A stretch of DNA of 62,421 bases from the NCBI GenBank assembly GCA_001512505.1, contig LFSC01000012.1:139573-201993 (forward strand). Direction: 5' to 3'. Shown here one piece after another: positions 6,202 through 56,914 of this stretch. Position numbers and translations under genes: made by a program. Source of the DNA: Clostridiaceae bacterium DTU079 (GTDB lineage Bacteria; Bacillota; Clostridia; Acetivibrionales; Acetivibrionaceae). The notes under the pieces are model-generated. The model saw only the letters and a program-made list of their open reading frames with translations, was not told the origin of the DNA and made no database searches. Each line of letters opens with the position of its first letter. Within the stretch, counting starts at the first letter, position 1.

Positions 6202-6461
6202 GATGACTCTCTCCTTACGCAAAAGTATAGAATGATTTCATATTTTTTATCGGCAATAAACAGACGTAAATTACTATTAAATAAAAGGTTTTGAAAATGG
6301 AATTATATAAAAAATGATGTTTGCTCTTTATTTTTGAATTGAAAACTTATTTTTTCTTTTAATTTGCAAGAAAATCGCCATCAAGTATAAGGTTCTTATC
6401 AATTTCCATATTGTTTCTGACTTTACATCAAAATATGATTAAAAAAGTTCAATAGGATCCA

Positions 6462-6481
6462 CAGAACAGGGAACGGTTCTG
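6462..6481 (-). terminator. Probable terminator of the MoxR/DUF58 operon
   Basis: A short hairpin (CAGAAC / GTTCTG arms) just downstream of the last gene of the minus-strand operon, with a minus-strand T-run about 15 bases further on. The rest of the 6202-6488 gap is AT-rich and shows no gene. Confidence 0.45.
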
Positions 6482-6488
6482 CGCTGTT

Positions 6489-10553: not shown

Positions 10554-10579
10554 TTTTTCCTCCAAAATATTATATATCG

Positions 10580-13183: not shown

Positions 13184-13298
13184 TTTTAATTATATAGGAT
13201 TTTTTCTGTTTTGTACATCTCAAAAATTAATTAATATACGCATTATATAATTAATAGGCATAAAGCGTGGGGTATTTTATGGAAGTGCCGATGTAAAA

Positions 13299-14045
13299 TT
13301 AAGACTTCGGAATATTTATCTTCATATTATCCAATCTTGTATAATAATCCAGCAACTCACTGTAGTTTTCAATTTCCTTTTTTCCTCTTTCGCTCAAATC
13401 GTAAACTCCCCTTGAAACTCTTACAAACCAATCATAAAAGTTGTTTTGAAGTATTTGGGAAACCTTATCCCTGTCAGCTCCCCTCTCCTTAAGCTGTTTA
13501 ATACTTAATGGTCCGTTGGCTTTAATAAGTGCCGCAATTTGAATCGATTTCTCCCTGTAAGCGGTAACCAACTTCTTTCTGGTACATCCTCCGGTATTAT
13601 AATCGCCCTGTCTTTCGGAAAACTCCTTTAAAACCAGACTCTTCTTTTTGTTCAACCTGCCCCTGCTCTTTTCACGGCTAAAGGGCTTGGGCTCTACGGC
13701 TTCTTCCACCATGGACACATCCCCTCTGAAAGAAACCAACAGCAAACCGATTTCCAATCGTCTTAAAAGATGGCAAATATCCCTCCACCGTTTTGTAAAT
13801 AAAACCCTGCCCTTTTTAGGAACAGCAATATAGACAATATCCGCAACCCTTTGCCTTAATGCAGCCTGCAATATGACATCAAGATTCAATGTTTTTTTCA
13901 TTTCCACCACAAGAAGTGTTTCTCCCTTTAATGCCGTTACATCACAATTTTGAACTTCTCCTTTTACATCATAGCCTTGCTTTGTAAGATAATTTTTAAC
14001 AGGAGCATAAAGATCTTCTTCCATGATTTCCTTTTTATCGTTCAT
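13299..14045 (-). CDS. DUF2161-type protein with PD-(D/E)XK-like core
   Basis: A 248-residue soluble protein. Residues about 10-110 look like a nuclease-type core: an N-terminal Glu (MEEDLYAPVKNYL), an Asp in QNCDVTAL, then LLVVEMKKTL (E-x-K), which fits the restriction-endonuclease-like pattern reported for DUF2161. A basic linker follows (RGRLNKKK), then a winged-helix-like C-terminus (IAALIKANGPLSIKQLKERG) that may bind DNA. Activity is not shown by the sequence. The gene lies just downstream of the MutS-like gene on the same strand (54-bp gap), so a DNA-related joint role is possible. Confidence 0.75.
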   Translation of the reverse strand: MNDKKEIMEEDLYAPVKNYLTKQGYDVKGEVQNCDVTALKGETLLVVEMKKTLNLDVILQAALRQRVADIVYIAVPKKGRVLFTKRWRDICHLLRRLEIGLLLVSFRGDVSMVEEAVEPKPFSREKSRGRLNKKKSLVLKEFSERQGDYNTGGCTRKKLVTAYREKSIQIAALIKANGPLSIKQLKERGADRDKVSQILQNNFYDWFVRVSRGVYDLSERGKKEIENYSELLDYYTRLDNMKINIPKS

Positions 14046-14099
14046 GAACCATCCATTATCCCTTCAAATTATTCATCTTATATAATAACACATTTTTGC

Positions 14100-42457: not shown

Positions 42458-44077
42458 CTACTTCAGTTGCCGTATCAAGTACCGGTACTCCTCTTCAAGT
42501 CTTTCCTTGTCAGCACCAGGTTCTGAAAGCCTTGCCACTACCTCCGCAATTCTCATTTGCAAAGCAATCCTTTCCGCCTCGCTGTTGTTCGAGATTATTG
42601 ACTTTTTCCCTCCATCGAAATACTCCTTCGGTGTCCCTTCAAACTCAACTATTTGCCGGTTTTCAACAATGAGCAGTCTGTCGGCAACTGCATTTACAAA
42701 TTCTCTGTCATGGGAGACAAACAATACAGTTCCCTCATATTCCCTAAGGACATCCTCCAAGGCCTCAATGGACTGCATGTCAAGATAATTTGTGGGCTCA
42801 TCCATCAAAAGAACATTGGCATCGGAAACAAAAAGCTTTGCAAAAGAAACCTTTATCCTTTCACCGCCGCTCAACACGCCAACCCTTTTATAAACATCCT
42901 CCCCTGATATAAGAAGCCTTGCCAGAATCGTGCGCGCCACCGTCTGGGACTGTACACTGTCCTTCATCACATTTTCCAATACGGTTTTGTCGTAATCCAG
43001 GTTTTCAAAGCCCTGACGAAAATAACCAAGCTTCGCTTTAGGCACAATATAAACACTATCATTGGTAGTATTGGCTATTAAGTTGAGCAATGTGGTCTTT
43101 CCTGCTCCGTTTTCTCCCCACAAGGCGGTCTTTGAACCGTTATAAACCTTGAACTGCGCACTGTCAAATATCTTTTTGCTGCCGTAGCTGAAAGTCAGCC
43201 CTTCGGAAGAAATGACAACCTTGTTTTTCGGGGGATCCGTTAAGGAAAAATCAAGCTTTATCTTTGGAATCTCTTTGGGCCTTTCTTTTACCTCAAGCTT
43301 TTCAAGCCGGGTTTTCAGACTGTTGACAGAACTGTCCAACTTTTTCTGCTTCTGTTGTGCATCCATCTTATGAAGCCTAGCCTCGGAATTTCCCATCCGT
43401 TTTGGAGTTTTTCTCATGGTTTTAGACCTATTTTGTCTATCCATTATTGCCTCTTCAAGCTTTGACTTTTCCGAAACATACTTATTGTATTCCAGCATCT
43501 CATACTGAAGCTCCCTATCCTTCTGTTCCTTATAGGAAGAATAGTTGCCAATGTAAATTTTTATTTTTGAATCCCTGACTTCGAGGATTTTGTTACAAAG
43601 GCTATCAAGCAAGGCTCTGTCATGGCTCACCAATAAAAAGGTTTCCACCTCCGACAGTTTTTGCTTTAATAGTTCTATACCTTTATAGTCAAGGTTTGCG
43701 GTAGGTTCATCGGCAAATAAAAGCAAGCTTTCATTTTTGAACGCATTTACTATCTTTATTCTTGTCTCTTCACCGCCGCTATATACCTCCTGATGGGTTT
43801 TATTGTTTAAATTGAACTCCTTGAGGTCTTTGGGATTCACATCTTTTATTTTCTCGTCGGAAAACTGGCGAATATAGGATATATCGCAATAATGCTTTAC
43901 AAAGCCCTGGTCCGGTTCTATATCCAAAGACAATATGTTCAAAAGGGTTGTTTTTCCCGAACCGTTTTGACCCACAATTCCTATTTTGTCTCCCGAATAT
44001 ATTTTTAAATCGTCAAACTCAATAATAAGCTTGTCTCTATAATATTTTTTTATGTTCCCGGCTTCTAAAACAAGCAT
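42458..44077 (-). CDS. ABC-F family ATPase (possible ribosome protection protein)
   Basis: A 539-residue protein with two ABC ATPase domains and no membrane segments. Walker A motifs are GQNGSGKTTL and GENGAGKTTL; signatures are YSGGEETRI and LSGGERIKVS; Walker B regions are LLFADEPTANLDY and LLMDEPTNYLD. A charged linker of about 90 residues with helices separates them, and a short C-terminal helix follows. This is the ABC-F layout. The somewhat divergent signatures and linker resemble antibiotic-resistance ABC-F proteins (Vga/Lsa/Msr type) that eject drugs from the ribosome, but a housekeeping role is also possible. AAAGGAGAG stands upstream. Confidence 0.88.
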   Translation of the reverse strand: MLVLEAGNIKKYYRDKLIIEFDDLKIYSGDKIGIVGQNGSGKTTLLNILSLDIEPDQGFVKHYCDISYIRQFSDEKIKDVNPKDLKEFNLNNKTHQEVYSGGEETRIKIVNAFKNESLLLFADEPTANLDYKGIELLKQKLSEVETFLLVSHDRALLDSLCNKILEVRDSKIKIYIGNYSSYKEQKDRELQYEMLEYNKYVSEKSKLEEAIMDRQNRSKTMRKTPKRMGNSEARLHKMDAQQKQKKLDSSVNSLKTRLEKLEVKERPKEIPKIKLDFSLTDPPKNKVVISSEGLTFSYGSKKIFDSAQFKVYNGSKTALWGENGAGKTTLLNLIANTTNDSVYIVPKAKLGYFRQGFENLDYDKTVLENVMKDSVQSQTVARTILARLLISGEDVYKRVGVLSGGERIKVSFAKLFVSDANVLLMDEPTNYLDMQSIEALEDVLREYEGTVLFVSHDREFVNAVADRLLIVENRQIVEFEGTPKEYFDGGKKSIISNNSEAERIALQMRIAEVVARLSEPGADKERLEEEYRYLIRQLK

Positions 44078-44667
44078 AAAAAATCTCTCCTTTCACATGA
44101 AAATAGCTCAAAGCATCGGATACCTTCTGCTTTGTCCGTTTCAATTGATGAAACAGCTATTAAATGTGCCGGAAAGATAATAAATATAATGTGTTAACCT
44201 CTGATATGAATATAAAACCTTAATACGCCTAAATATACATTAATAAGAATTATATTCTGACAATTAATTCAAATGACTAATATACATCTTACTGATATAT
44301 ATCAAATTTCTATGCTATTAAGGTGCATTCCACGACTTTCAAAGCTATGGAATATAGAAATTCTCAAACTCATTCTAATTTTTCGCAAATCCAACCAAAC
44401 GGAGGTTGATCCAGCACAAACAAAGCACAAAGGCCCCTTTGCTCCAATAATACAGATTCTGTACTTTTGAATTCTCTGCTGAATTAACCGATCTTCATCG
44501 CCTAAATACCTTTCCCTTTCGTTAGATTTATCTTTATTTTACAGCATAATATCCCATAAATCAACAATCAATATTTAAAGGCGCATTTTAAATTAAAATG
44601 AAAAAAATATGTAAGAAGCATTTTGAAATTTGCTAAACTCAAATTTCTGAAACATTTTTCTTAATAT
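44078..44667. other. Long gene-free region, possible leader of the ABC-F gene
   Basis: No convincing gene. On the minus strand a TTGTCA/ATGTAT pair (around 44240-44264) could be a promoter, giving an untranslated leader of about 150-170 nt with small stems (AAAGCA/TGCTTT, GTTTC/GAAAC). Resistance ABC-F genes are often preceded by attenuator leaders; no clear leader peptide or terminator was found here. Confidence 0.4.
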
Positions 44668-45156
44668 TTATATAATGCACCCGGTATTTTCCCTCTTGAA
44701 TTTTTCAAATTCCTCAACAATTTCAGGATGCATATCGAAAAAGCAGTTTAAGTAATTAATGTTTCTGAGGGTGTTGGCACTAACATTATGTTCAATTAAT
44801 TCCGTCTCCTTTAAAAGATTCTCGCTGATTCCTATACTTTTTAAAAACCTTTCAATAATATTGTGCCTCTCCAATAAAAACCTCCCCAATTCCCTTCCTT
44901 TTTCCGTAAGGCTAATAATTCCGTACCTTTGATAATCCAAAAATCCTTGCGATGCCAGCTTTTGAACCATCTTTGTTGCGGAAGACGGCCTTACGTTCAG
45001 AAGCTCTGCCAGGGTATTTATTCGCATGTACCCTCCTTCCCGAACATTTCTATAAATCATTTCAAGGTAATCCTCCATAGCCGATGTAAGAGTTTTGCTT
45101 TCCTGTTTTTGCAGTTGATAACCCCGTACCGTATGAAACTCATTGTTTTTCATCAT
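44668..45156 (-). CDS. DtxR/MntR-family metal-dependent repressor
   Basis: About 162 residues. A winged-helix domain (INTLAELLNVRPSSATKMVQKLASQGFLDYQRYGIISLTEKG) precedes the dimerisation and metal-binding helices (RHNIIERFLKSIG, TELIEHNVSANTLRNINYL). Such proteins bind DNA when loaded with Fe2+ or Mn2+. It is divergent from feoA with a 155-bp spacer that contains an inverted repeat over the feoA promoter, so feoAB is its likely target. The C-terminal SH3-like domain of long DtxR forms is missing. The start at 45156 has GGAG 9 bases upstream; the ATG at 45171 has none. Confidence 0.88.
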   Translation of the reverse strand: MMKNNEFHTVRGYQLQKQESKTLTSAMEDYLEMIYRNVREGGYMRINTLAELLNVRPSSATKMVQKLASQGFLDYQRYGIISLTEKGRELGRFLLERHNIIERFLKSIGISENLLKETELIEHNVSANTLRNINYLNCFFDMHPEIVEEFEKFKRENTGCII

Positions 45157-45233
45157 TATCACTGTCTCCATAAAATTTTGATTTATTTAATTATATTCGG
45201 AACACTAACATTTTATTTTACATATATTAGTCT

Positions 45234-45274
45234 TGAGAAACAAAATTTCTCACCGCTCATAACGTTTATATAAT
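45234..45274 (+). promoter_or_regulatory. feoA promoter with inverted-repeat operator candidate
   Basis: An inverted repeat (TGAGAAA 45234-45240 and TTTCTCA 45246-45252, 5-bp spacer) overlaps the -35 region of a promoter with TATAAT at 45269-45274. It is the best candidate site for the neighbouring DtxR-family repressor. Confidence 0.6.
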
Positions 45275-45311
45275 ATGGCAGCTATCTATAACATATATTG
45301 GAGGTATTACA

Positions 45312-45551
45312 ATGGATAAAAAATATATATCTCTAAATACCCTCCCTTTGGGAGAAAGAGCAGTAGTAAAATCTCTCACGTCCAACGGAATAACGAGAAG
45401 AAGAATGTTAGACCTCGGACTGGTTTCCGGCACCGTTGTAGAGGCTTTGCAGAAGAGTCCCTCAGGAGATCCGACTGCCTATCATATCCGGGGAGCCGTT
45501 ATTGCACTTCGTTCTGAAGAGGCCAGTAAAATATTAGTAGAAATAAATTGA
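45312..45551 (+). CDS. feoA: Ferrous iron transport protein FeoA
   Basis: A 79-residue SH3-like protein, the usual length of FeoA (ISLNTLPLGERAVVKSLTSNG, RRRMLDLGLVSGTVVEAL, GAVIALRSEEASKILVEI). FeoA is a small cytoplasmic helper of the FeoB iron pump. It has GGAGG 8 bases before the ATG and is followed after 54 bp by the first part of feoB. The divergent DtxR-type repressor probably controls the pair. Confidence 0.95.
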   Translation: MDKKYISLNTLPLGERAVVKSLTSNGITRRRMLDLGLVSGTVVEALQKSPSGDPTAYHIRGAVIALRSEEASKILVEIN

Positions 45552-45605
45552 TGACATATTAATTTTTCGGGAATAATCCTATAAAAAATAAGGAGGAGCT
45601 CTAGC

Positions 45606-47282
45606 ATGGGTCTTACAAGCCAATCCACCGGAATGGGAATTCTGGTGAATGAACTTAAAATACAATTAACTACTCCCGATGACAAAGTTATTGCACTGGC
45701 GGGAAATCCAAACGTCGGCAAAAGCACGGTATTCAACAGTCTTACAGGTCTAAACCAGCATACGGGAAACTGGCCGGGTAAAACCGTCTCCAATGCTCAG
45801 GGGAAATACCGTCACAAAGATAAAAATTTTATCATGGTGGATATACCCGGCACCTATTCCTTAATGGCAAATTCTGTGGAGGAGCAAGTGGCAAGAGACT
45901 TCATATGTTTCGGTCAACCTGACACCACTGTTGTGGTAACCGATGCAACATGCCTTGAACGAAACCTGAACCTGGTTCTTCAAACAATGGAAATAACCGA
46001 TAAAGTTGTGGTCTGTGTAAATCTTATTGACGAAGCGAAAAGAAAAAAAATCAGCATTGACTATAATAAACTGTCGGAAATGCTCGGAGTGCCTGTAATT
46101 CCAACAGCAGCCAGAAATAACAAGGGCCTTATGGAATTAATGGATGCTGTCTATGATGTAACCCACGGAATTATAACCAACACTCCGATTAAAATTACAT
46201 ATGACAATACACTTGAAGATGCAATAAACATGGTTCAGGAAGCAATACCCGAGAAAATTCAAAATAAAATTAGCAGCCGCTGGGTTGCCTTAAAGCTTCT
46301 GGACGGAGATTCAACCCTGTTGGAATCGTTAAACAAGTACCTCGGCTTCAATATACTCGATGATGCCAAACTTTTGGAATCCCTCAAAGCAGCGAAAGCA
46401 TACCTGTCCCAAAACGGTATCGAAACCGAACAATTTAGGGACAGAGTTGTCTCAAAGCTTGTAACCGTTGCGGAGGAAATAAGCAAGAAAACCGTTACAT
46501 TTGAAAGCAAGCAATATAACAACCTTGATAGAAAATTAGACAGGTTGCTTACATCAAAGACCTTTGGAATACCCATTATGCTTATCCTGCTGGCTGCAAT
46601 TTTATGGTTGACCATTGTAGGGGCCAATTTCCCTTCGGAAATACTTTCCAATTTTCTCTTTTGGATCGAAGACCGTTTATCCGACTTTTTTCTTTGGCTG
46701 AATACACCGGAATGGCTTCACAGTCTGTTGGTTACCGGCGTGTATAGAACGGTTGCATGGGTCGTATCGGTTATGCTGCCTCCCATGGCCATATTCTTTC
46801 CGCTGTTCACTCTGCTGGAGGATCTGGGGTATTTACCCCGAATTGCATTCAATCTCGACAATTTCTTTAAAAAAGCCTGTGCTCACGGAAAGCAAGCACT
46901 GACCATGTGCATGGTTAAACCAATAATGTATTTTTTTAAAAAGGGACAAGGTGTATTACCCTGTCCCTTAAAATCATTATCTCTGTATAAAATTCAAAAA
47001 CGCTTCCGCTTGCTTTTCCAAATGCGGACGGATTTCTTCCATCTTAAGCTTTCCTTGACCGTCAACGTACTGCCAGGCGTTGGGTACGGTGACTCTGGGT
47101 ACATTCATAACCTTCATATCCAAAAAGCTAATGAGCGTAACCAAATGGTCTTGTGCAATAGCCGTTCCTGCCATACCGAGAGAAATTCCGCTTATTGCGG
47201 CGGGTTTGCCCGCAAGAACCTGAGGCTCATTATCGCTAACCGGGCGAGACAGCCAGTCAATAAGGTTTTTCAAAACACCTGA
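45606..47282 (+). CDS. feoB: FeoB, N-terminal part, interrupted by an integrated element
   Basis: The frame starts normally (AAGGAGGAGC upstream) and encodes a Ras-like G domain (G1 GNPNVGKS, G3 DIPGTYS, G4 NLIDE), the GDI helical domain, and the first membrane helices up to ALTMCM at residues 430-435. There the genuine FeoB sequence stops at 46902-46914. The following 123 codons (VKPIMYFFKKGQG onward) are read from the inserted element, antisense to the FMN reductase gene, and have no FeoB similarity. The rest of FeoB lies at 56060-56914. As it stands the pump should be non-functional: half of the permease domain is missing. The first 432 codons join in frame with the downstream 284 codons. 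Confidence 0.95.
   Translation: MGLTSQSTGMGILVNELKIQLTTPDDKVIALAGNPNVGKSTVFNSLTGLNQHTGNWPGKTVSNAQGKYRHKDKNFIMVDIPGTYSLMANSVEEQVARDFICFGQPDTTVVVTDATCLERNLNLVLQTMEITDKVVVCVNLIDEAKRKKISIDYNKLSEMLGVPVIPTAARNNKGLMELMDAVYDVTHGIITNTPIKITYDNTLEDAINMVQEAIPEKIQNKISSRWVALKLLDGDSTLLESLNKYLGFNILDDAKLLESLKAAKAYLSQNGIETEQFRDRVVSKLVTVAEEISKKTVTFESKQYNNLDRKLDRLLTSKTFGIPIMLILLAAILWLTIVGANFPSEILSNFLFWIEDRLSDFFLWLNTPEWLHSLLVTGVYRTVAWVVSVMLPPMAIFFPLFTLLEDLGYLPRIAFNLDNFFKKACAHGKQALTMCMVKPIMYFFKKGQGVLPCPLKSLSLYKIQKRFRLLFQMRTDFFHLKLSLTVNVLPGVGYGDSGYIHNLHIQKANERNQMVLCNSRSCHTERNSAYCGGFARKNLRLIIANRARQPVNKVFQNT
46902..46930. other. attL: left recombination site
   Basis: The core CCATG-TG-CATGG (46903-46914) has its probable crossover dinucleotide TG at 46908-46909. 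The element-side arm runs 46910-46930. It is the inverted complement, at 20 of 21 positions, of the arm at the other end (56045-56065). Confidence 0.88.
46941..46969 (-). terminator. Terminator at the left end of the element
   Basis: A 12-bp stem with one mismatch (AAGGGACAAGGT / ACCCTGTCCCTT) and a 5-base loop, with T-rich sequence following on the minus strand. It ends the FMN reductase gene 7 bp away and may also stop transcripts entering from feoB. Confidence 0.85.
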
Positions 47283-47531
47283 AAAAAAGTGATTGTACTC
47301 AGGGGTAAAGAACCAAATTCCATCGGCAGCCTTCACTTCTTCACGAACCCGCTTTACAGCTTCCGGTGCTGGAAATTCTATATCCTCATTCATAAAAGGT
47401 ATGTCATGATAGTCAAGCAGCTTAAATTCAGCCGTATCTTTCAATATTTCTTTTGCTTCCAAAGCCAACTGCCGGTTATAGGACTCTTTTCTCAGAGAGC
47501 CGACAATGGCCAATATTTTTAATTTATTCAT
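46977..47531 (-). CDS. NADPH-dependent FMN reductase-family flavoprotein
   Basis: A 184-residue flavodoxin-fold protein. The N-terminal VGSLRKESYNRQLA is the FMN phosphate-binding loop, WFFTPEYNHFFSGVLKNLIDWLSR is the family signature, and GKPAAISGISLGMAGT the second flavin loop. Members reduce FMN, quinones, azo dyes or chromate. It is the first gene inside the left end of the element, transcribed toward the end and closed by a terminator. Within a sulfur-gene cargo it may supply reduced flavin, but a direct link is not shown. Confidence 0.9.
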   Translation of the reverse strand: MNKLKILAIVGSLRKESYNRQLALEAKEILKDTAEFKLLDYHDIPFMNEDIEFPAPEAVKRVREEVKAADGIWFFTPEYNHFFSGVLKNLIDWLSRPVSDNEPQVLAGKPAAISGISLGMAGTAIAQDHLVTLISFLDMKVMNVPRVTVPNAWQYVDGQGKLKMEEIRPHLEKQAEAFLNFIQR

Positions 47532-47791
47532 TATAATGCACTCCTCAATCAGTTATTTGGATTTATAAGTAAAAAGTATATAACTTTATTTAAATCATTC
47601 TTCGTATTTTTATCATTGAAAATACCCTTCCATGTCCTTTATTTATAATAATTTTACCACTTTTTTAAAGTTAATAAACAGTTTTTTACCCCATATTAAA
47701 AGTTAAATGTATCAAAACCTTTTCAAATGTGTTATAATTGCAATAATATGAGTAAATATATAGGATAACAAATATATGGGAGGTTCAGTAC

Positions 47792-48709
47792 ATGCCAATT
47801 AAAATACCCGATACTTTACCGGCGAAAGAAACGCTTACCAATGAGAATATATTTGTAATGGACGAACAAAGGGCTCTGCATCAGGATATCAGGCCTTTAA
47901 GAATAGCAATATTAAATTTAATGCCGACAAAAATTACAACGGAAACACAGCTTCTCCGTTTGATAAGTAATACTCCGATTCAGATAGAAATTGAGCTTTT
48001 ACATCCAAAGACCCATATATCCAAAAATACACCCTTAGAGCACCTGACAAAGTTTTATAAGACCTTTGATGAGGTTAAGGATGAAAAATTCGACGGTCTT
48101 ATTATAACCGGTGCTCCGGTTGAGCAAATGGAGTTTGAAGAGGTAAATTACTGGAACGAGCTTACAAAAATAATGGATTGGAGCCTTACCAACGTATATT
48201 CTACTTTTCATATTTGTTGGGGTGCCCAGGCTGCATTATACTACCATTACGGCATAAAAAAGTATCCCTTAAAGGAAAAAATGTTCGGTATTTTTGAGCA
48301 TCGCATTTGCAAACCCAACACCATGTTGTTGAGAGGTTTTGACGAACGCTTTTACGTTCCGCATTCAAGGCACACAGAAATACGGAGGGAAGATATTGAG
48401 AAAGTACAAGAAATCGATATACTTTCAGATTCGGAGCAAGCAGGCATATACATCATGAAGACAGACGGCGGCAGACAGGTTTTTGTTACCGGCCACTCGG
48501 AGTATGACCGTTTTACCTTAAAGGAAGAATATGAAAGAGATGTTACAAAAGGTCTTGACATTAAGGTACCGGTTAATTATTTTCCTGATGATGACCCTAA
48601 AAAAGAGCCCATTGTCAATTGGAGAGGCCATGCCAACCTCCTGTTTTCAAACTGGCTGAACTATTACGTATATCAGGAAACACCGTTTGATTTAAATGAG
48701 TTAAAATAA
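47792..48709 (+). CDS. metA: Homoserine O-acetyltransferase (MetA family, acetyl-CoA type)
   Basis: A 305-residue enzyme that acylates homoserine, the first committed step of methionine synthesis. The catalytic Cys142 lies in HICWGAQAA. The family signature [12 protein letters not shown] is at 40-51. Residue 111 is Glu ([12 protein letters not shown]); in this family Glu at 111 goes with acetyl-CoA use while Gly goes with succinyl-CoA, so I predict O-acetylhomoserine as product, which suits the sulfhydrylase encoded downstream. GGGAGG stands 8 bases before the ATG. A TATAAT at 47733-47738 is the likely -10 region. Confidence 0.94.
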
Positions 48710-48768
48710 ATTTACACTAAAAATGCATAGATTTAGCTTTGACAAACCAATTTACGGGAGTGATCAGA

Positions 48769-49221
48769 TTGAAAATCTCTACAAAGGGCAGATACGGATT
48801 GGAGGCAATTGTTGATCTTGCAATTCATTCCTCCGAAGGACGTGTAAACTTAAAAAGTATATCCGAAAGATGCGGAATTTCTGAAGCATATATATTGCAA
48901 ATTTTCTTAATACTAAGACGGGCAGGAATTGTTGAAAGCACAAGGGGTACCCAGGGCGGATATGTTCTTGCCTCGGAACCTTCCAAAATTACGGTGGGCG
49001 ATGTGTTAACCGCTTTGGAAGGTCCCCTGGCACCGGTGGCCTGCATAACCGAGAAAGCGAAAAAAAACTGTGGCAGATATGAAAATTGCACCGCAAGGAA
49101 CTTCTGGGAGAAGGTTATGAATACTTTGAGCGATGTGGCAAATTCAATTACAATTGAAGATCTTGTTAATTGCTATAAAAACTTTATTCCGCGGGATACG
49201 GAACTGGACTATTACATATGA
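48769..49221 (+). CDS. Rrf2-family regulator with three clustered cysteines
   Basis: A 150-residue winged-helix regulator starting LKISTKGRYGLEAIVDLA, with recognition helix SEAYILQIFLILRRAGIV and wing GTQGGYVLA. The start is TTG at 48769 with GGGAG 8 bases upstream, which puts the usual M-K-(I/F)-S-T-K start in place. It has Cys in ACITEKAKKNCGRYENC, a spacing like the cluster-binding region of IscR-type regulators, so it may carry a [2Fe-2S] or similar cluster. It lies 59 bp after metA and probably regulates the sulfur genes or iron-sulfur functions. Confidence 0.88.
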   Translation: MKISTKGRYGLEAIVDLAIHSSEGRVNLKSISERCGISEAYILQIFLILRRAGIVESTRGTQGGYVLASEPSKITVGDVLTALEGPLAPVACITEKAKKNCGRYENCTARNFWEKVMNTLSDVANSITIEDLVNCYKNFIPRDTELDYYI

Positions 49222-49298
49222 TCCCTTCACTTAACCACCTTATATCTGTGTTATAACTTCTTACCAATACAAAATTTGAATTTACATCTAAACAGTTA

Positions 49299-49327
49299 TT
49301 GACAGAGAGAGTTTTAAGCATTATAAT
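49299..49327 (+). promoter_or_regulatory. Consensus promoter before the second rrf2 gene
   Basis: TTGACA (49299-49304) and TATAAT (49322-49327) with a 17-bp spacer, a full-consensus promoter. It would drive the second rrf2, the sulfhydrylase and cysK. ATATAGGAT at 49335-49343 also occurs before metA (47758-47766). Confidence 0.85.
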
Positions 49328-49364
49328 ATTAAACATATAGGATTAGTAAGGAAGGGGATGTTAA

Positions 49365-49814
49365 ATGAAGTTCTCGACCAAGGGACGTTACGGACTCAGG
49401 GCAATGATTGACCTTGCAGTGTACTCTAACGGAGAACATGTTGCTTTGGGCAGTATAGCTCAAAGGCAGGGAATATCGACAAACTACCTGGAGCATGTTT
49501 TTTCCGAACTGAGGAAATCGGGATTGGTTAAAAGCGTTAAGGGTGCACAGGGTGGATATCTATTATCCGAAAGCCCGTCCGACATAAAAGTGGGAAGAAT
49601 TTTGAGAGTGCTTGAAGGGCCCCTTTCGGTAATTGATGAAGATTCTGAAAATACTTCCGGAAGTGAGTCGGTTATCCGAAATTGTATTAAAGAAATTGTA
49701 TGGGATAAAATGAATGCCCGCCTTAACGAATTGGTGGATTCTTTGACCCTTGAAGATCTGGCCCGTGACTATCGGGAACGAAACGGAATCGATAATACAA
49801 TGTATTATATATAA
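49365..49814 (+). CDS. Rrf2-family regulator lacking a cysteine cluster (CymR-like)
   Basis: A 149-residue paralogue of the preceding gene (MKFSTKGRYGLRAMIDLAVYS, SQGISTNYLEHVF-like recognition helix, GAQGGYLLSES wing). It has a single Cys (RNCIKEI), so no cluster is likely. In Firmicutes, cluster-free Rrf2 proteins such as CymR repress cysteine and methionine genes with the help of cysteine synthase, and cysK lies in the same operon here. AAGGAAGGGG stands upstream of the ATG, 38 bp after a consensus promoter. It is probably the local sulfur repressor. Confidence 0.85.
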   Translation: MKFSTKGRYGLRAMIDLAVYSNGEHVALGSIAQRQGISTNYLEHVFSELRKSGLVKSVKGAQGGYLLSESPSDIKVGRILRVLEGPLSVIDEDSENTSGSESVIRNCIKEIVWDKMNARLNELVDSLTLEDLARDYRERNGIDNTMYYI

Positions 49815-49874
49815 TCGTATGGAAAACACGACTAAAGCGATAAGAAAAATCGTATATAAAAAGGAGATGTGCTT

Positions 49875-51167
49875 ATGTCTGAAAGAAAATTAAAATTTGA
49901 TACCCTGCAAGTTCATGCCGGTCAAAGTGTTGATCCGGCTACCGGAGCAAGAGCGGTTCCTATTTATCAAACAACCTCATACGTATTCAATAGTACCGAA
50001 CATGCTGCCAACCTCTTTGCCTTAAAGGAATCCGGCAATATTTACACAAGAATCATGAACCCGACAACCGATGTTTTTGAACAGAGAATGGCCGCACTGG
50101 AAGGCGGTGTTGGAGCACTGGCAGTTTCCTCGGGCTCAGCGGCTATTACCTATGCAATACTTAATATCGCCGGAAGCGGTGATGAAATTGTTTCGGCAAG
50201 TACCCTTTACGGCGGTACATACAACCTGTTTTCGACAACATTGCCCAAGCTTGGCATTAAAACTGTTTTTGTTGATCCCGATGACCCGGAAAACTTCAGA
50301 AAAGCAATTAATGAAAAAACAAAGGCTGTTTATATAGAAACCGTCGGAAATCCGGGAATCAATCTGATTGACATCGAAGCCGTTGCAAAAATTGCCCATG
50401 AGAACGGTTTGCCGCTTATTGTGGACAATACCTTCGGAACCCCTTACCTTATAAGGCCTATTGAGTTCGGAGCGGATATTGTTGTACATTCGGCAACAAA
50501 GTTTATTGGAGGCCATGGAACCTCCATCGGCGGTGTCATTGTTGATTCCGGAAAATTTAACTGGGCTGAAAGCGGAAGATTCCCAGGCTTTACAGAACCG
50601 GACCCCAGCTATCACGGTCTTAAATATTATGAAGCCCTGGGACCTTTGGCATACATCACCAAAGTCAGAGTTCAGCTGTTGAGAGATACCGGAGCATGCA
50701 TAAGCCCGTTCAATGCCTTCCTTTTGCTCCAAGGACTTGAAACCCTTTCATTGAGGGTTGAAAAACATGTTTCCAATACCAAAAGGATAGTGGATTTTCT
50801 ACAAAATCATCCTCAGGTGTCATGGGTAAACTATCCGAGCATAAAAGGCAACAAATACTACGAGCTTGCCCAAAAGTACCTTCCGAAGGGAGCCGGCTCA
50901 ATCTTTACCTTCGGAATTAAAGGTGGAATCAACGCTGCGAAGAAATTCATCGAAAGCCTTGAAATATTCTCACTTTTGGCGAATGTGGCCGATGCCAAGT
51001 CTTTAGTAATTCACCCTGCATCCACAACCCATTCCCAATTATCTGAGGAAGAGCAAAGAGCTTGCGGGGTAACTCCCGATCAGATAAGGCTGTCCATTGG
51101 TATCGAAGATGCGGATGATCTTATATATGACCTTGACCAGGCACTGAAAAAAGCAACGGAAGCTTAA
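49875..51167 (+). CDS. metY: O-acetylhomoserine sulfhydrylase
   Basis: A 430-residue PLP enzyme of the Cys/Met metabolism family that turns O-acetylhomoserine and sulfide into homocysteine. The PLP lysine is in [13 protein letters not shown]; other signatures are [25 protein letters not shown] and DNTFGTPYL. The length of about 430 and the HGTSIGG segment favour the sulfhydrylase over cystathionine gamma-synthase (about 380-400). The start at 49875 follows AAGGAG by 9 bases; an ATG two codons earlier is possible. Together with metA it gives a direct two-step path from homoserine to homocysteine. Confidence 0.94.
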
Positions 51168-51219
51168 AACCATAGAACGTGTTATAGGTATAAACCGAAA
51201 TAGTATAGGAGGCGATTAT

Positions 51220-52155
51220 ATGTCGAAAATAGCAAAAAATTTAACGGATCTTATTGGAAATACCCCGCTTTTGGAGTTATCCAACTACAACAAAGCGAAT
51301 AACCTGGAAGCCAGACTCGTTGTAAAGCTGGAATACTTTAATCCTGCATCCAGCGTAAAGGACAGAATCGGATATGCAATGATAAAGGATGCAGAAGAAA
51401 AAGGCTTGATAAACAAGGATTCTGTTATAATAGAACCCACAAGCGGAAATACCGGTATTGCTCTGGCTTTTGTTGCCGCCGCAAGAGGTTACAGGATTAT
51501 ACTTACCATGCCTGAAACCATGAGCCTTGAAAGAAGAAACCTTCTTAAAGCCTTGGGAGCCGAACTGGTTCTTACTCCTGGAGTTGAAGGAATGGGCGGA
51601 GCAATCAGAAAGGCTGAGGAACTGGCCGCCTCAATACCCAATTCCTTCATACCCCAACAGTTTTCAAATCCTGCTAATCCGGAAATTCACAGAAAAACAA
51701 CGGCAGAAGAAATTTGGAGGGATACGGACGGACAGGTGGATATCTTTGTGGCAGGAGTCGGTACCGGAGGAACAATTTCCGGCGTGGGCGAAATATTGAA
51801 GCAACGAAAACCCGATGTGAAAATTATTGCAGTTGAACCCGCCGACTCTCCGGTTTTGTCCGGCGGAAATAAAGGACCTCACAAGATTCAAGGAATAGGT
51901 GCCGGCTTTGTGCCTGCCAATTTCAAAAGAGAGGTCGTAGATGAGATATTCAAGGTCACCAATGAAGAAGCTTTTGAAACTTCCCGAAAGCTTTCAAAAG
52001 CCGAAGGCCTTCTGGTAGGAATATCCTCCGGAGCATCTGCCTTTGCAGCGACCCAAATTGCTAAAAGACCTGAAAACAAAGGTAAGCTTATAGTTGCTTT
52101 GCTTCCTGACACAGGCGAAAGATATCTGTCCACTGCTTTATACCAGGACGCATAA
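51220..52155 (+). CDS. cysK: Cysteine synthase (O-acetylserine sulfhydrylase)
   Basis: A 311-residue PLP enzyme making cysteine from O-acetylserine and sulfide. The PLP lysine is in [14 protein letters not shown], the substrate loop [10 protein letters not shown], the phosphate loop [10 protein letters not shown], and the C-terminal [16 protein letters not shown] lies 8 bases before the ATG, 52 bp after metY. Cysteine synthase can also act as the sensing partner of CymR-type Rrf2 repressors, one of which is encoded two genes upstream. It is the last gene of the sulfur operon; two hairpins follow. Confidence 0.95.
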
Positions 52156-52170
52156 ATAGAGTGATTGTTA

Positions 52171-52228
52171 AGGAAAAATGTATCCAGAAACTTAAGTTAC
52201 GTAAGTAATGTTTCTTTCACATTTTCCT
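52171..52228. repeat. Palindromic element copy after cysK
   Basis: Outer arms GGAAAAATG and CATTTTCC enclose CCAGAAACTTAAGTT at 52184-52198, shared with the inverted repeat after cadA (22171-22185). Confidence 0.55.
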
Positions 52229-52254
52229 CAATACTTAAACAACACGTAAAATGT

Positions 52255-52280
52255 AGCTCCACCGAAATAACGGTGGAGCT
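52255..52280. terminator. Terminator after cysK
   Basis: A perfect 9-bp GC-rich stem (AGCTCCACC/GGTGGAGCT) with an 8-base loop and T-run, between the convergent cysK and CotH-dockerin genes. Confidence 0.88.
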
Positions 52281-52316
52281 TTTCATAATTAAGGAGAGGA
52301 TTTTAGCTAATTGGAA

Positions 52317-54230
52317 TTATTGGCCCCAGCCGCCTCCCCAGCCGCCTCCCCAACCGGGCCAGCCAGGCCATCCGGGATTTGAGGTCGGTTCCCAACCGGA
52401 ACTGTCTATCCAGGCAGCTCTCTTTAGCAAGTAATTTTCTACAATCTGTATCTGTTCTTCCCATGTCTGTGTAACCTGGGTGCTAAAACCGCCTACAAAA
52501 GGAGTACTGAGAATGTTCCACTTCTGGAAGTTACGGTGTGCAGCATTGGATAGCGGTTTGGACAGCTCTCTGACTTTAGCTACCAACTGTTCATCGGAAA
52601 GAGGTCCTTTACGCAATTCCTCCCAACGGGCTTTTACCTTGCTTCTAAAATTCGGATCCTGCATCAGTGTGTAATACCAGTCAGTCGTAGTAGCCATACC
52701 CGGCATCATCGGCGCAGTAGACTGATATTGCCACCCCTCTATATTAGAACTTGGCAAACCGAACAATCCGGTATAAGAGTCATACGCCAAGTCATAGTCC
52801 CATAATGGACCGGCTTTCAGTTTTTGACCTCGATCCTTGTGAATATGCGCACTGCGTATATAGGAATCCGGTTGTTTGCCCAATTCGGTATGAATTATGA
52901 AATCTACAAAGGAATCAACATCAATGTACGCAGGATAGCCTGTCTGCGGATCGGACGGGTTTTGGCTGTGGATTGAGTCGTGAACCTTTTGAATGTAATT
53001 GGTTATCCAAGCCAGTTGCTCGGGCAGGAGATCGTCCGGCTCTTTGAGCTCAAGATCATTCCAACCGTTGCCTCTTATCAGCGGCTCTTCCGCTGCCATC
53101 ATGTTGAACTGCATAAGGTAACCGCCGGTAATATTCGGCTCTGTCAAATCATCTTCCTTTAATTTCTTAATGTTGAGACGGTCCTTTCCAATCTCCAATG
53201 TTTCTGTAAGCAAATATACACCCTGGTAATCATCAGCAGATAAAGGCTGATTATCAAAGTTAATATAAACTTCCACATGTGCGTATCGTGGAGTAGCCAA
53301 TCCCATTTCTTTTCCCAATTCATAAGCAAGAGCGTTACGAATCAAAGACTTGTCGGGATAAGGTGAAATAAGTGCCCAGTCTCCGTCTCCCGGCATGCCC
53401 AGCATGGGATATTTGGCATCATCATCTTTATTATCCCTTAGCTCAAGTCTGTAGGGAGTCTTTTCAAAATTGGCGGAGGATTGACCTCGCACATGGAATC
53501 CGGCACGTGTGACTATAGTCGCAGGCTGAAGTAAAGATACTTTATTGTTCCTGGGCTCTAGCAATATAAACGCAACATCTTTATATTCACGGTCAGGTTT
53601 TCCTTTGCCGTATGCATCCAAAATCAGCACCGGAATATCATGTTCGGCATCAATTGAGCTGGCAACATAAATTGCAGTTCCCATATCACCGCTAGCGCTG
53701 CCGTTCACAAAAGATTGTGCCCTAAGCTGTGTTGTGGTTGTAAATGTTAAGGGTCCGGTATACAGTTTCGAGCTCACGGTAGGAACGCTTCCGTCTACGG
53801 TGTAGCGAATTTGGGCATCAGGGATTTTGGAGCTCAACTCAACTGTAACCTGATTCTTAAAAGTACCGCTGGGAACAGAGAAAATTATATCCCCCTTAAG
53901 CTCGTTTTCAAGTTTGATAACCTTTTCATCCCGTTCATCCTTTGGAATGTCTTCCACCGGAAACGAAGACAGCTTTCTCAGCAAGTACCTTTTTAAAATT
54001 GTAACGTCCAGGGAATCTACAGAATTGTCACCGTTTAAGTCTGCAGCCGTAAGATTATCAATAGTCAGTTTTCGCAGAATATACCTTTTCAACATTGTAA
54101 GATCCAATGAATCAATGGTACCGTCGTCGTTTACATCTCCATATTTAACACCAAATACATTTGAAACGGAGAAAACGTTCACCAACAAAGCAATTACCGG
54201 CAATAAAATAAAAAATCTGCTTTTTCTCAT
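52317..54230 (-). CDS. Secreted CotH kinase-like protein with N-terminal dockerin
   Basis: A 637-residue secreted protein. It has a signal peptide (1-26), a type-I dockerin (about 29-95), a chitobiase C-terminal-like beta module (about 113-190, IRYTVDGSVP), a CotH domain (about 195-560: FHVRGQSSANFEKTPYRLEL, GVYLLTETLEI, the DxD-like WDYDLAYDS), and a Trp/Gly/Pro-rich tail (WPGWPGWGGGWGG). It is a distant relative of the larger CotH-dockerin at 26541-29693 but with its dockerin at the other end. It is the only gene in the element unrelated to sulfur, redox or recombination. GGAGG stands upstream of the ATG. Confidence 0.92.
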   Translation of the reverse strand: MRKSRFFILLPVIALLVNVFSVSNVFGVKYGDVNDDGTIDSLDLTMLKRYILRKLTIDNLTAADLNGDNSVDSLDVTILKRYLLRKLSSFPVEDIPKDERDEKVIKLENELKGDIIFSVPSGTFKNQVTVELSSKIPDAQIRYTVDGSVPTVSSKLYTGPLTFTTTTQLRAQSFVNGSASGDMGTAIYVASSIDAEHDIPVLILDAYGKGKPDREYKDVAFILLEPRNNKVSLLQPATIVTRAGFHVRGQSSANFEKTPYRLELRDNKDDDAKYPMLGMPGDGDWALISPYPDKSLIRNALAYELGKEMGLATPRYAHVEVYINFDNQPLSADDYQGVYLLTETLEIGKDRLNIKKLKEDDLTEPNITGGYLMQFNMMAAEEPLIRGNGWNDLELKEPDDLLPEQLAWITNYIQKVHDSIHSQNPSDPQTGYPAYIDVDSFVDFIIHTELGKQPDSYIRSAHIHKDRGQKLKAGPLWDYDLAYDSYTGLFGLPSSNIEGWQYQSTAPMMPGMATTTDWYYTLMQDPNFRSKVKARWEELRKGPLSDEQLVAKVRELSKPLSNAAHRNFQKWNILSTPFVGGFSTQVTQTWEEQIQIVENYLLKRAAWIDSSGWEPTSNPGWPGWPGWGGGWGGGWGQ

Positions 54231-54434
54231 ATAAAACCCCCCTCCGAAAAATCTTCAAATTTCTTTCCAACTATATATTCGTTTTGAAAACAAGTTTTAT
54301 GTCTTTACTTTCAGAAATAATAAACTTATTTACTATTTGTACCCAATGTAAATATACAAATAACTCTATCGGATTGTTATACATTTAGTACAATCCATGA
54401 TGCATAACAATTAGTAACAGGGGGTGCAAATAAC

Positions 54435-54593
54435 ATGAAGGAAAAAAAAGAAAACCTTTCAAAGGTCAAAATCAAGCATCACCTTGCCGACGGAGAAATC
54501 AGAGAATCCGTAAAAGGCCACAAGGTTCCCGTCAATGACCGAACCATAGCTGCCTACAGGATTTTAGCTCAATACGGGAAATCCAAAGAGTAA
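54435..54593 (+). CDS. Small basic protein next to the recombinase (candidate directionality factor)
   Basis: A 52-residue frame with a purine-rich AGGGGG site about 9 bases before its ATG. It is highly charged (begins MKEKKENLSKVKIKHHLADG, then IRESVKGHKVP). There is no signal or membrane segment. It is 61 bp upstream of the serine recombinase gene on the same strand. Large serine recombinases need a small accessory protein (recombination directionality factor) to excise, and these are often small, charged and encoded nearby, so this is the obvious candidate. I do not recognise its family. Confidence 0.65.
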   Translation: MKEKKENLSKVKIKHHLADGEIRESVKGHKVPVNDRTIAAYRILAQYGKSKE

Positions 54594-54654
54594 TATCGGA
54601 CATTAAGCTTTAAATATAAATTTGCTTTATAACTTAATTCGGGAGCCGGTATAA

Positions 54655-56040
54655 ATGAAAAAAGTAGCATGCTACGTAAGAGTCAGCACCGAAAACCAGA
54701 TAGAAAATTACAGCATTGAAGAACAAACCGAGCGGCTTAAAGCTTACTGCAAAGCAAAGGATTGGACTATCCATAAATTTTATATCGATGCAGGGTATTC
54801 CGGAGGAACCACCAACCGTCCGGCACTGAAAGAAATGCTTGAGGATATCGACAAAAACTTGATCCAAATGGTCGTTGTATACAAGCTTGACCGGTTAAGC
54901 CGATCCCAAAAAGACACATTAACCCTTATCGAAGACGAATTTCTGGCTAAGAATGTTGATTTTGTATCCATCAGTGAAAATTTCGACACCTCCTCCCCCT
55001 TCGGCCGTGCAATGATAGGAATATTGTCGGTATTTGCACAGCTGGAAAAAGATCAGATAACAGAGCGGCTTACAATGGGAAGAATAGGCCGTGCAAAGAA
55101 CGGATATTTTCACGGCGGTCCGACACCTCCCACGGGATACGATTATATTGACGGAAGGCTTGTTATAAACGAATATGAAGCAATGCAGGTAAGAGAAGTA
55201 TTCGAAAGATTTTTAAAGGGGCAAAGCATTCATTCCATAAGATCATATATGAGCAAGCACTACACCAACAAGTACGGTAATTGGAGAAGCCACACCCTTG
55301 TTTTAAATATTCTTCGAAACTGTACTTATATCGGAAAAATTAAATTTAAAGGTACTGTGTATGAGGGCAATCACGAACCCATAATTTCCGAAGATATGTT
55401 TAATGCCGCGCAAAAGCTTTTAAACAGCTCTGAAAGAATAAGCAAAAAAACCGCTCCTCAAAAAATCCCGTTCCGGGCCGGTAACCTACTTACCGGTTTA
55501 TTGATATGCGGTAAATGCCAAGCGGGCTTTTGTGCCAACCACGGTTTTTACACCTGTTATTCCCGCGGAAAGACCGATAAAAAGAAAATCAAGGATCCCA
55601 ACTGCAAAAATAAAAGGTGGCCCATTCTCGAGCTTGACAATGTCGTGAAAAATGAGATTTTAAGCCTTGATTGGGACATCAGCTTTTTCAAAGATGAAAT
55701 CAGCAATATCCCCGATTCGGATTTTCATACAATAAAACATAGGATTAATGAAATTGACAAACAAATTTCAAGAATGATTGACCTCTATCAGATGGGCAAT
55801 ATTTCAATAGAAGAAATATCGGCAAGAATAAATGCCTTAAAAAGTGAAAGGGATAATATATCCTCGCTATTGGAATCAAAGCCGAAAGTCTTTCCTGATG
55901 AAGCAAAAAGCTCCTTTCCCAATCCAAAAGCCGTGTTCATAAACGGTACCCTGGATGAGCAGCGGCTTTTTGTCAGGTCCCTTATTGATTATATAACCGT
56001 AAACGATGATGAACTGTACTTTCAATGGAGCTTCCGTTAA
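54655..56040 (+). CDS. Large serine recombinase (site-specific integrase/excisionase)
   Basis: A 461-residue recombinase. The catalytic serine is Ser11 in YVRVSTENQ, with the resolvase core to about 145 (YKLDRLSRSQKDTL, SPFGRAMIGILSVFAQLEKDQI). The Recombinase domain (about 165-270) and a zinc ribbon (ICGKC...C...C, about 283-320) follow, then a coiled coil (about 350-415). This is the layout of large serine integrases and of sporulation recombinases such as SpoIVCA. The stop codon is 4 bp from the element-side arm of attR. GGGAG lies upstream of the ATG. Confidence 0.95.
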   Translation: MKKVACYVRVSTENQIENYSIEEQTERLKAYCKAKDWTIHKFYIDAGYSGGTTNRPALKEMLEDIDKNLIQMVVVYKLDRLSRSQKDTLTLIEDEFLAKNVDFVSISENFDTSSPFGRAMIGILSVFAQLEKDQITERLTMGRIGRAKNGYFHGGPTPPTGYDYIDGRLVINEYEAMQVREVFERFLKGQSIHSIRSYMSKHYTNKYGNWRSHTLVLNILRNCTYIGKIKFKGTVYEGNHEPIISEDMFNAAQKLLNSSERISKKTAPQKIPFRAGNLLTGLLICGKCQAGFCANHGFYTCYSRGKTDKKKIKDPNCKNKRWPILELDNVVKNEILSLDWDISFFKDEISNIPDSDFHTIKHRINEIDKQISRMIDLYQMGNISIEEISARINALKSERDNISSLLESKPKVFPDEAKSSFPNPKAVFINGTLDEQRLFVRSLIDYITVNDDELYFQWSFR

Positions 56041-56044
56041 TATT

Positions 56045-56072
56045 TACATTATCGGTTTAACCATGTGCATGG
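56045..56072. other. attR: right recombination site
   Basis: The element-side arm is 56045-56065, the probable crossover dinucleotide TG 56066-56067, and the core copy 56060-56072. Sequence to the right is feoB. Confidence 0.88.
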
Positions 56073-56914
56073 GATTCGGGTGCAATGCTGCCGGAATTAT
56101 CGGATGCAGAATTATCGAATCTCCAAGGGAGAGGCTGATAGCAATAATCACAAATAATTTCGTTCCCTGTAACGGCCGCTTCCCGACCCTTATATCCATA
56201 ATCACCATGTTTTTTGCAGCATCCGTTTTAGCTCCTTTTCAATCGGTAATATCTGCACTCATATTAAGCACAGTTATATTATTGGGGATTTGTACAACGT
56301 TACTTATTTCAAAAATACTGTCAAAAACAATACTTAAAGGGCTTCCTTCATCATTTACCCTGGAACTGCCGCCCTACAGGAAGCCTCAGCTCGGAAAAAT
56401 CCTTGTGCGGTCGGTTTTTGACAGAACTCTGTTTGTTCTGGGGCGCGCTGTTTCCGTAGCTGCACCGGCCGGGCTGATAATCTGGATTATGGCAAACATA
56501 AATGTGGGAGATGCCAGTCTCTTATCCCACTGTGCAGGTTTTCTCGACCCGTTTGCAAGATTAATCGGTATGGACGGTTACATTCTGATGGCTTTTGTCC
56601 TCGGTTTCCCGGCTAATGAAATAGTCGTTCCCATTATAATAATGAGTTATATGTCCAAAGGAAGCATGATGGAATTTGAAAGCCTGCATGAACTAAGAGA
56701 ACTTCTCATTTCCAACGGTTGGACTTGGCTTACGGCAGTATGCGTTATGATATTTTCCCTTATGCATTGGCCTTGCGGTACAACATGCTGGACCATAAAA
56801 AAGGAAACTCAAAGCCTTAAGTGGACCTTGGCTTCCATCCTCATACCCACATTTACGGGCATCGTAATTTGCTTTATTATTGCAAACTCAGTCAGGTTGC
56901 TCGGATTAATTTAA
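56060..56914 (+). pseudogene. feoB: FeoB, C-terminal part, separated from its start by the element
   Basis: From codon ACC at 56060 the frame reads TMCMGFGCNAAGIIGCRI, the conserved FeoB Gate/TM motif, and continues with the remaining permease (RERLIAIITNNFVPCNGRFPTL, GFPANEIVVPIIIMSY, MHWPCGTTCWTIKKE) to a normal C-terminus at 56914, 284 codons. It has no G domain, no good ribosome site and no start of its own, so it should be silent or non-functional in the integrated state. The codon phase at the core is the same as in the upstream half (both begin a codon at A of ACC), so excision gives a seamless 716-residue protein. Confidence 0.93.

Follow-up and report, generated by a model that had tools for sequence, protein, structure and literature searches.

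The 62,421-nucleotide stretch of Clostridiaceae bacterium DTU079 analysed here (the window) is contained in contig C65 (210 kb). The draft genome comprises 67 contigs totalling 3.1 Mb and is 99.3% complete. In this stretch the iron transporter gene feoB is split by a 9,158-bp insert carrying methionine and cysteine genes together with a large serine recombinase. The amino-terminal part of feoB ends after codon 432 at a 13-bp core, ACCATGTGCATGG, and the remaining 284 codons start at a second copy of this core. The two copies (46902-46914 and 56060-56072) are in identical codon phase, and the coordinates given for the split in a preliminary description of the window were confirmed exactly. In-silico deletion of 46902-56059 yields, as that description had predicted, an open feoB frame of 716 codons with no internal stop. 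With the insert in place, the left feoB frame reads on for 126 codons into the insert, to a stop that ends at 47282. Pfam assigns FeoB_N, FeoB_Cyto and part of Gate to the left open reading frame (ORF), and Gate and FeoB_C to the right one. The genes outside the insert are the following.

44668-45171, minus strand: DtxR/MntR-type iron-dependent repressor, divergent from feoA-feoB (Pfam PF01325 and PF02742).
45312-45551, plus strand: feoA (Pfam PF04023).
45606-46901, plus strand: feoB codons 1-432 (Pfam FeoB_N and FeoB_Cyto), orthologue full length in five relatives.
56060-56914, plus strand: feoB codons 433-716 and stop codon (Pfam Gate and FeoB_C).

In the closest relative, G001, whose FeoB is 89% identical, the gene is uninterrupted. 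Positions 42462-46914 and 56060-56914 of the window map to one continuous stretch of G001 and overlap by exactly the 13-bp core (blastn). The same core is found at the uninterrupted feoB site of G001 and of G003, a genome of the same genus with a 75% identical FeoB. The comparison with related feoB genes proposed in the preliminary description was made against 14 genomes. The joined FeoB is full length, at 70–89% identity, in five of them (G001, G002, G003, G005 and G009), split at this codon between contigs in two (G007 and G030), in frame-broken pieces in one (G004), and matched at no more than 41% in the other six. The fragmented gene of G004, whose pieces carry frame breaks, was excluded from the insertion count. 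Two contigs of G007 (L058 and L059) terminate precisely at the feoB core, their ends overlapping by 17 bp. We did not count this as an insertion because no recombinase of the feoB-targeting clade described below was found in that genome; the break could stem from the assembly, from a mixed population or from a different element. The genome of DTU079 itself has two further feoB genes besides the split one.

The ends of the insert were analysed as attachment sites.

46902-46914: attL core, ACCATGTGCATGG, with the central TG at 46908-46909 and a half-site arm at 46910-46929.
56060-56072: attR core, ACCATGTGCATGG, with the central TG at 56066-56067 and a half-site arm at 56046-56065.

When the right end of the insert is joined to its left end, a 42-bp palindrome, ACATTATCGGTTTAACCATG-TG-CATGGTTAAACCAATAATGT, results, in which 19 of the 20 arm positions are complementary round the central TG. 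Because the best comparable palindrome at any position of the window reaches 17 of 20, the match of the ends is not due to chance. A repeat search of the insert returned this same end repeat as the longest one (28 nt, 89%). The hallmark of large serine recombinases is thus present, namely attL and attR sites with a short common core and an attP inverted repeat round a dinucleotide; symmetric inverted repeats round a central dinucleotide are described for the attP sites of phage serine recombinases in the part of PMC5595907 covered here. Similar junctions were found in two elements discussed below, with 17 of 20 positions round TG at the inner junction of the Ruminiclostridium sufflavum element and 16 of 18 round AT, itself a symmetric centre, in the Lachnospiraceae element L142. 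The core pattern occurs three times in the genome, twice at feoB and once on contig C46. The copy on C46, which lies inside another gene with a 6-base assembly gap some 40 bp away, was taken as a chance match.

The right end of the insert holds the recombinase gene.

54655-56040, plus strand: large serine recombinase, 461 amino acids (aa) (Pfam PF00239, PF07508 and PF13408; PHROG 95, integrase).

Its assignment in the preliminary description agrees with the domain content, which consists of the Resolvase and Recombinase domains and the zinc ribbon by which membership in the large serine recombinases is defined. The best-scoring relatives of solved structure include the integrases of TP901-1 and A118 (3bvp and 4kis), and identity to the TP901-1 integrase is 34% over 418 aligned positions. 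Relatives were collected from species-representative genomes (26) and from IMG/VR (76), duplicates included, by scans seeded with exact peptides of the window recombinase; relatives lacking these peptides were therefore missed. A search across the order (58 genomes) gave more than 800 bits only for this genome (G000) and G030, the next score being 230. Database proteins 72–81% identical to the recombinase exist, known as proteins, their surroundings not seen.

All five distinct full-length located relatives with at least 54% identity adjoin a feoB half that is cut at about residues 431–438. These are the recombinase of a prophage in R. sufflavum (L139, 64%), L140, L141 and L166 (57%), and L142 (54%); the window recombinase is 53–64% identical to the five. 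L140 was counted on its amino-terminal junction alone, since the amino-terminal half of feoB lies beside the recombinase and a carboxy-terminal half 6.4 kb off in the other direction. L165, a second record of the L139 locus, was left out of the five, and L234 (61% over 208 positions, cut by a contig end) was not judged. Of the 94 other located loci, 79 extend 300 bp or more past the recombinase, and tblastn showed feoB in none of them; the other 15 break off in this region and allow no judgement; L163 and L164, with no match at the threshold of the locus count, stand outside the 94. By this association with feoB, the recombinase evidently belongs to a clade of large serine recombinases that target the gene.

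The elements of the clade differ in content. In R. sufflavum the genes upstream of the recombinase resemble a phage lysogeny module (named by eye), and IMG/VR lists a 39,652-base viral contig that ends at this recombinase. The Lachnospiraceae metagenome-assembled genome L142 has a feoB element of about 10.6 kb (4493-15094) with AbiH, WYL, GrpB, methyltransferase and acetyltransferase genes. The landing site is thus common to these elements and the cargo variable.

Further observations concern the arrangement of these elements. In R. sufflavum (G030; L139 11423-12340 and L060 1-1100) the left end of the element is repeated exactly over 811 bp beyond an inner attP-type junction, and a 93-bp repeat of the recombinase tail precedes attR; feoB of this species is likely to contain two tandem copies of the element, interrupted by an assembly gap. 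With AbiH, an abortive-infection gene, the L142 element suggests that cargo inserted at feoB may include defence genes. In L140, L141 and L142 the recombinase is located on the amino-terminal side of feoB and reads against it, and these elements therefore sit at the same codon in the opposite orientation. The feoB halves of L140 (7403-17366) stand in reversed order on either side of mntR, and between them is an ORF resembling a transposase (named by eye), as if the site had been inverted.

The preliminary description was right in assigning methionine and cysteine genes to the insert. The insert contains, in addition, two Rrf2 regulators, a flavin mononucleotide (FMN) reductase, a dockerin-CotH protein and a 52-aa ORF.

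46977-47531, minus strand: NADPH-dependent FMN reductase (Pfam PF03358), with a second copy on contig C46.
47692-54341: segment similar to the methionine/cysteine locus of G001, from metA to the 5' side of cotH (blastn).
47792-48709, plus strand: metA, homoserine O-acyltransferase (Pfam PF04204), single copy found in the genome.
48739-49221, plus strand: Rrf2-family regulator 1 (Pfam PF02082).
49365-49814, plus strand: Rrf2-family regulator 2 (Pfam PF02082).
49869-51167, plus strand: metY-type pyridoxal phosphate enzyme of cysteine/methionine metabolism (Pfam PF01053), which we take to be metY, O-acetylhomoserine sulfhydrylase-like.
51220-52155, plus strand: Pfam PF00291 protein, presumably cysK, cysteine synthase, single copy found in the genome.
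52317-54230, minus strand: CotH-kinase protein with a type I dockerin (Pfam PF08757 and PF00404).

A genome search at E ≤ 0.001 identified one metA and one cysK, both inside the insert, and weaker paralogues of metY elsewhere. The gene order metA-rrf2-rrf2-metY-cysK is found in six of the seven genomes read (G001, G003, G004, G005, G007 and G009), spread over two contigs in G001; G003 and G005 have an additional gene ahead of cysK, and in G011 the locus is rearranged. In those six genomes the cluster lies away from the feoB orthologue, either on another contig or at a distance of about 460 kb (G003) or more than 1 Mb (G009). Trees of four concatenated cargo proteins (from metA, rrf2, metY and cysK) join the window to G001 at a support of 1.0, and FeoB does likewise at 0.98. 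Similarity to the G001 locus starts at 47692, 100 bp before metA, and runs through cysK to about 54341 on the far side of cotH. Downstream of cysK, G001 has an internally deleted cotH remnant, and just the two ends of cotH match. The region from metA to cotH was thus probably transferred as a single block. Colinear with the chromosomal locus of the relatives and vertically descended, the cargo is in these two respects like a captured host segment and is, judged by trees and gene order, native to the host lineage and not foreign. The FMN reductase at the left end is outside the block and groups with G003, not with G001 (support 0.94).

The copy of the FMN reductase gene on C46 (9660-10208) shares 98.9% identity with its counterpart in G004, which represents a different species of the genus; this suggests a recent transfer. 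A stretch of about 70 bp between cysK and the cotH remnant of G001 is a dispersed repeat with about 20 matches across the DTU079 genome, mostly at 79–93%; the sites include contigs C3, C34, C61, C41 and C1. In G011 (L109 4242-8396) a different feoB (682 aa, 34% identical) and an ORF resembling a dtxR-feoA fusion (by eye) are located directly upstream of metA, so that iron transport and methionine genes are neighbours there as well.

Between cotH and the recombinase gene lie two small features.

54371-54396: inverted repeat GGATTGT-N12-ACAATCC with 7-bp arms, upstream of the 52-aa ORF (read by eye).
54435-54593, plus strand: 52-aa ORF on the strand of the recombinase gene, which follows after 61 bp; candidate recombination directionality factor.

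The inverted repeat is possibly an operator left from a phage control region. With a profile built from nine relatives, the window included, members of the 52-aa family were detected at 51 of the 103 recombinase loci (E ≤ 1e-4; the nine training members and the window lie within the 51, and 48 remain without three duplicate contigs) and at none of 21 controls, which were bacterial chromosome stretches and not phages. A larger family model gave 54 of 103 loci and again 0 of 21; as it was trained on its own hits, we quote the figures of the nine-sequence model. Forty-eight of the 51 members are located 0.5–3.5 kb upstream of the recombinase, the rest being those of L166 (3.7 kb), the window and L140 (on the far side). 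All 54 members found by the larger model are on the strand opposite the recombinase, except the window's own. When the DNA motif of the family was used as seed, 34 viral stretches were matched. Every one of the seven with a family member carries the recombinase (L208, L264, L268, L270, L280, L284 and L291), three of them being contigs already known via the recombinase. The protein cluster of the 52-aa protein occurs on 59 contigs, the longest of 168 kb, their surroundings not seen, and a family member is present in R. sufflavum (L139). TP901-1 has a gene with the annotation experimental excisionase; it is separated from int by 2.9 kb, is read from the other strand and lies behind cI, mor and an antirepressor gene. 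PHROG gave no significant match for the 52-aa protein. Because neither sequence nor fold provides a match, we infer its function from linkage, from position and from its being the sole phage-type company of the recombinase, and predict it as a candidate directionality (excision) factor.

Only two of the nine recognised genes of the insert are of phage type, the integrase and the 52-aa gene. Relatives usually have the latter 0.6–3.7 kb ahead of the integrase and in the other orientation, unlike the close same-strand pair of the insert. Structural, replication or lysis genes, as in a temperate prophage, are not among the nine, and a Pfam scan of the eight genes of at least 149 aa revealed no relaxase or conjugation genes of an integrative and conjugative or an integrative and mobilizable element. 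A host gene is split and exact removal restores its frame, as in gene-intervening elements of the skin or gin type. We consider 46902-56059 to be probably an integrated element of the feoB-clade recombinase, likely a shrunken prophage that likely captured a host metA-rrf2-rrf2-metY-cysK-cotH segment from elsewhere on the chromosome. Prophage ancestry, entry by attP × attB, capture of the block, a role of the 52-aa protein as excision factor and selective retention are proposed on the basis of the sequence data.

In anatomy, the feoB element resembles the gene-intervening elements gin, skinCd, SPbeta and yin, as far as the covered parts of the respective papers go, and the comparison with sigK/skin-type serine-recombinase elements made in the preliminary description is supported. 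The element gin in gerE of Bacillus cereus ATCC10987 likewise does not look like a phage, splits its gene at a short common core, and has a serine recombinase, an inverted-repeat attachment site and a tiny excision factor (GirX, 42 aa; PMC5595907). Unlike the feoB element, it carries three recombinase genes, and the gene that it restores in sporulating cells is itself a sporulation gene (PMC5595907), whereas the feoB element splits an iron transporter and carries the host's own biosynthesis cluster, with excision predicted only. Core metabolism is not mentioned in the covered parts of PMC5595907. In Clostridioides difficile, sigK is also rebuilt on excision of skinCd, for which CD1231 and the 72-aa CD1234 suffice (PMC5025042). 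That element differs in having 19 genes, in splitting a sporulation sigma gene and in a cell-type control that has been demonstrated; its recombinase has also been shown to integrate unaided (PMC5025042), whereas the feoB element is known from sequence alone. SPbeta in spsM is a gene-intervening element (PMC4191935), and for yin in yabG the circle and the rebuilt gene were found at all times tested (PMC10747680).

TP901-1 and A118 have an integrase of the same type, and xis of TP901-1 is placed as the 52-aa family is in phages, but its sequence does not match that family. The TP901-1 and A118 integrases use target genes other than feoB. The prophage of R. sufflavum DSM 19573 (L139/L165) shares with the window element a 64% identical recombinase, the same feoB codon, an attP-type palindrome of 17/20 and a member of the 52-aa family; it differs in its phage-type surroundings and its likely tandem copies. 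No report of feoB as the site of a serine-recombinase element was found in the open literature searched. The main text of an integrase survey (PMC10083194) contains neither 'feoB' nor 'ferrous'; its supplements may list feoB targets.

Changes in feoB and in the cargo were polarised against three and two outgroups, respectively, and the counts are small. In the amino-terminal half of feoB, 13 amino-acid changes fell on this lineage and one on that of G001 (P = 0.002), at 7 versus 8 synonymous changes. For the cargo genes the numbers were 28 and 44, and the contrast between feoB and cargo gave P = 0.003. The acceleration of the amino-terminal half fits, weakly, a relaxed constraint.

Several results weigh against our interpretation of the insert. 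No circle or excision was seen for this species, nor was an empty site of the species found, the best intact FeoB in the protein database being 89% identical. The carboxy-terminal half of feoB is not accelerated (amino-acid changes 4 versus 4, synonymous 7 versus 3), and for the whole gene (amino-acid 17:5, synonymous 14:11) the lineages do not differ significantly (P = 0.22). The gene is free of stops across its 716 codons; as about 0.6 stop codons would be expected with 12 extra missense changes, the open frame shows neither use nor recent insertion. That the donor site was vacated is not proven. In G001 the block is preceded by a vanY-type gene; in this genome that gene is found close to one end of contig C11, the contig breaking off after a further 0.3 kb. 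The right-hand neighbours in G001, GNAT and argF, were not found in this genome by DNA search (a third, carB, is present just as a 69% stretch on C67), and the repeat search of the insert revealed no repeat bracketing the methionine/cysteine block. At L140, L141 and L166 a single feoB junction half is seen each, beside the recombinase in L140, with the amino-terminal half only in L141 and just 38 carboxy-terminal residues at a contig end in L166. As to the 52-aa protein, the controls were not taken from phages, and seeding with the 53-aa protein of L143 gave the recombinase at just two of five loci within the DNA covered. L142, an element within the clade, has no clear family member, and Xis of TP901-1 has no detectable similarity to the family. 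A PDB profile search with the 52-aa protein reached a best E of 0.83, and its AlphaFold model (pLDDT 84, pTM 0.45) had no PDB match at E ≤ 0.001.

The end of C11, looked at by eye as a possible insertion sequence, matched nothing among the sequences compared but a second copy of the same stretch.

The accelerated amino-terminal half of feoB, a cargo that the cell probably needs, and no more than two phage genes would also fit a dead relic, that is, an old insertion incapable of excision, with its cargo fixed and feoB decaying. We regard this as possible but doubtful, as the recombinase is open over 461 codons with its 53–64% identical clade relatives, the att half-sites are complementary, and the 52-aa ORF is open, with a protein cluster on 59 contigs. 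It is unlikely that the element is a programmed or condition-dependent switch in which a signal such as iron limitation or sporulation leads to excision, with feoB rebuilt in some cells, as for skin and gin. Precedents exist in gin with GirC-GirX (PMC5595907) and skinCd with CD1234 (PMC5025042), as far as covered. Moreover, feoA and the iron-dependent repressor are directly upstream, feoB has no stop and a carboxy-terminal half as conserved as in G001, and the ORFs of the recombinase and the 52-aa protein are open neighbours in the same orientation, an arrangement that the other 53 family loci lack. Yet the sole metA and cysK found would go with the excised element, the amino-terminal half of feoB is accelerated, and the genome has two other feoB genes. 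A promoter scan upstream of the 52-aa ORF, limited to sigma-70-type sites, detected none reading toward the ORF and one on the other strand that did not exceed shuffled sequences.

The switch between iron uptake and sulfur metabolism put forward in the preliminary description is left unsupported by the host-lineage origin of the sulfur genes, the 13 changes versus one in the amino-terminal half of feoB, the presence of two further feoB genes and the lack of any intact FeoB closer than 89% among those found; since no metA or cysK was found outside the insert, a cell excising it would stand to lose both. A reversible flip, by a natural mini-element reduced to an operon of integrase and excision factor, between a FeoB-minus state that makes methionine and cysteine and a FeoB-restored state with metA-cysK on the circle, as a programmed iron/sulfur trade-off, strikes us as distinctly unlikely. 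If true, it would be to our knowledge the first gene-intervening switch of core metabolism, as opposed to sporulation, nitrogen-fixation or virulence genes. Arrival of the methionine/cysteine genes with the element from another species is very improbable: the FMN reductase does group with G003 over G001 (0.94), but metA, rrf2, metY and cysK group with G001 at 1.0, mirroring FeoB, the gene order is that of the congeners, and a second copy of metA or cysK was not found. An assembly artefact joining a mobile element to the methionine/cysteine cluster might be suspected in a draft of 67 contigs, but is hardly credible, given that the window lies within one 210-kb contig, both ends are complementary halves of one attP, and the assembly offers no alternative location for metA and cysK. 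The 52-aa protein cluster on 59 contigs, surroundings not seen, also speaks against it.

For an integrated, likely prophage-derived element with captured host genes we propose the following course. The recombinase would have joined the circular attP (the palindrome round TG) to attB at feoB codons 433–437, giving attL and attR. We predict that the 52-aa protein is the directionality factor and would be produced together with the recombinase; excision would then be possible, and the recombinase would likely be able to cut the element out and rejoin feoB. Because the element has the only metA and cysK found, cells losing the circle would likely need methionine or cysteine; the integrated state would therefore likely be held by selection and feoB kept broken, for which the two other feoB genes could cover. 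Excision, if it occurs, would be rare and costly, not programmed.

These results point to a phage-type integrase clade with feoB as common landing site among the members found. In DTU079 the element holds the host's only metA and cysK found, and it is thus a mobile element that the cell likely cannot lose without cost. The finding of directionality factors is listed as a future direction in the covered part of a large integrase survey (PMC10083194). With its 51 loci, the 52-aa family would provide testable candidate directionality factors of TP901-1/A118-type integrases.

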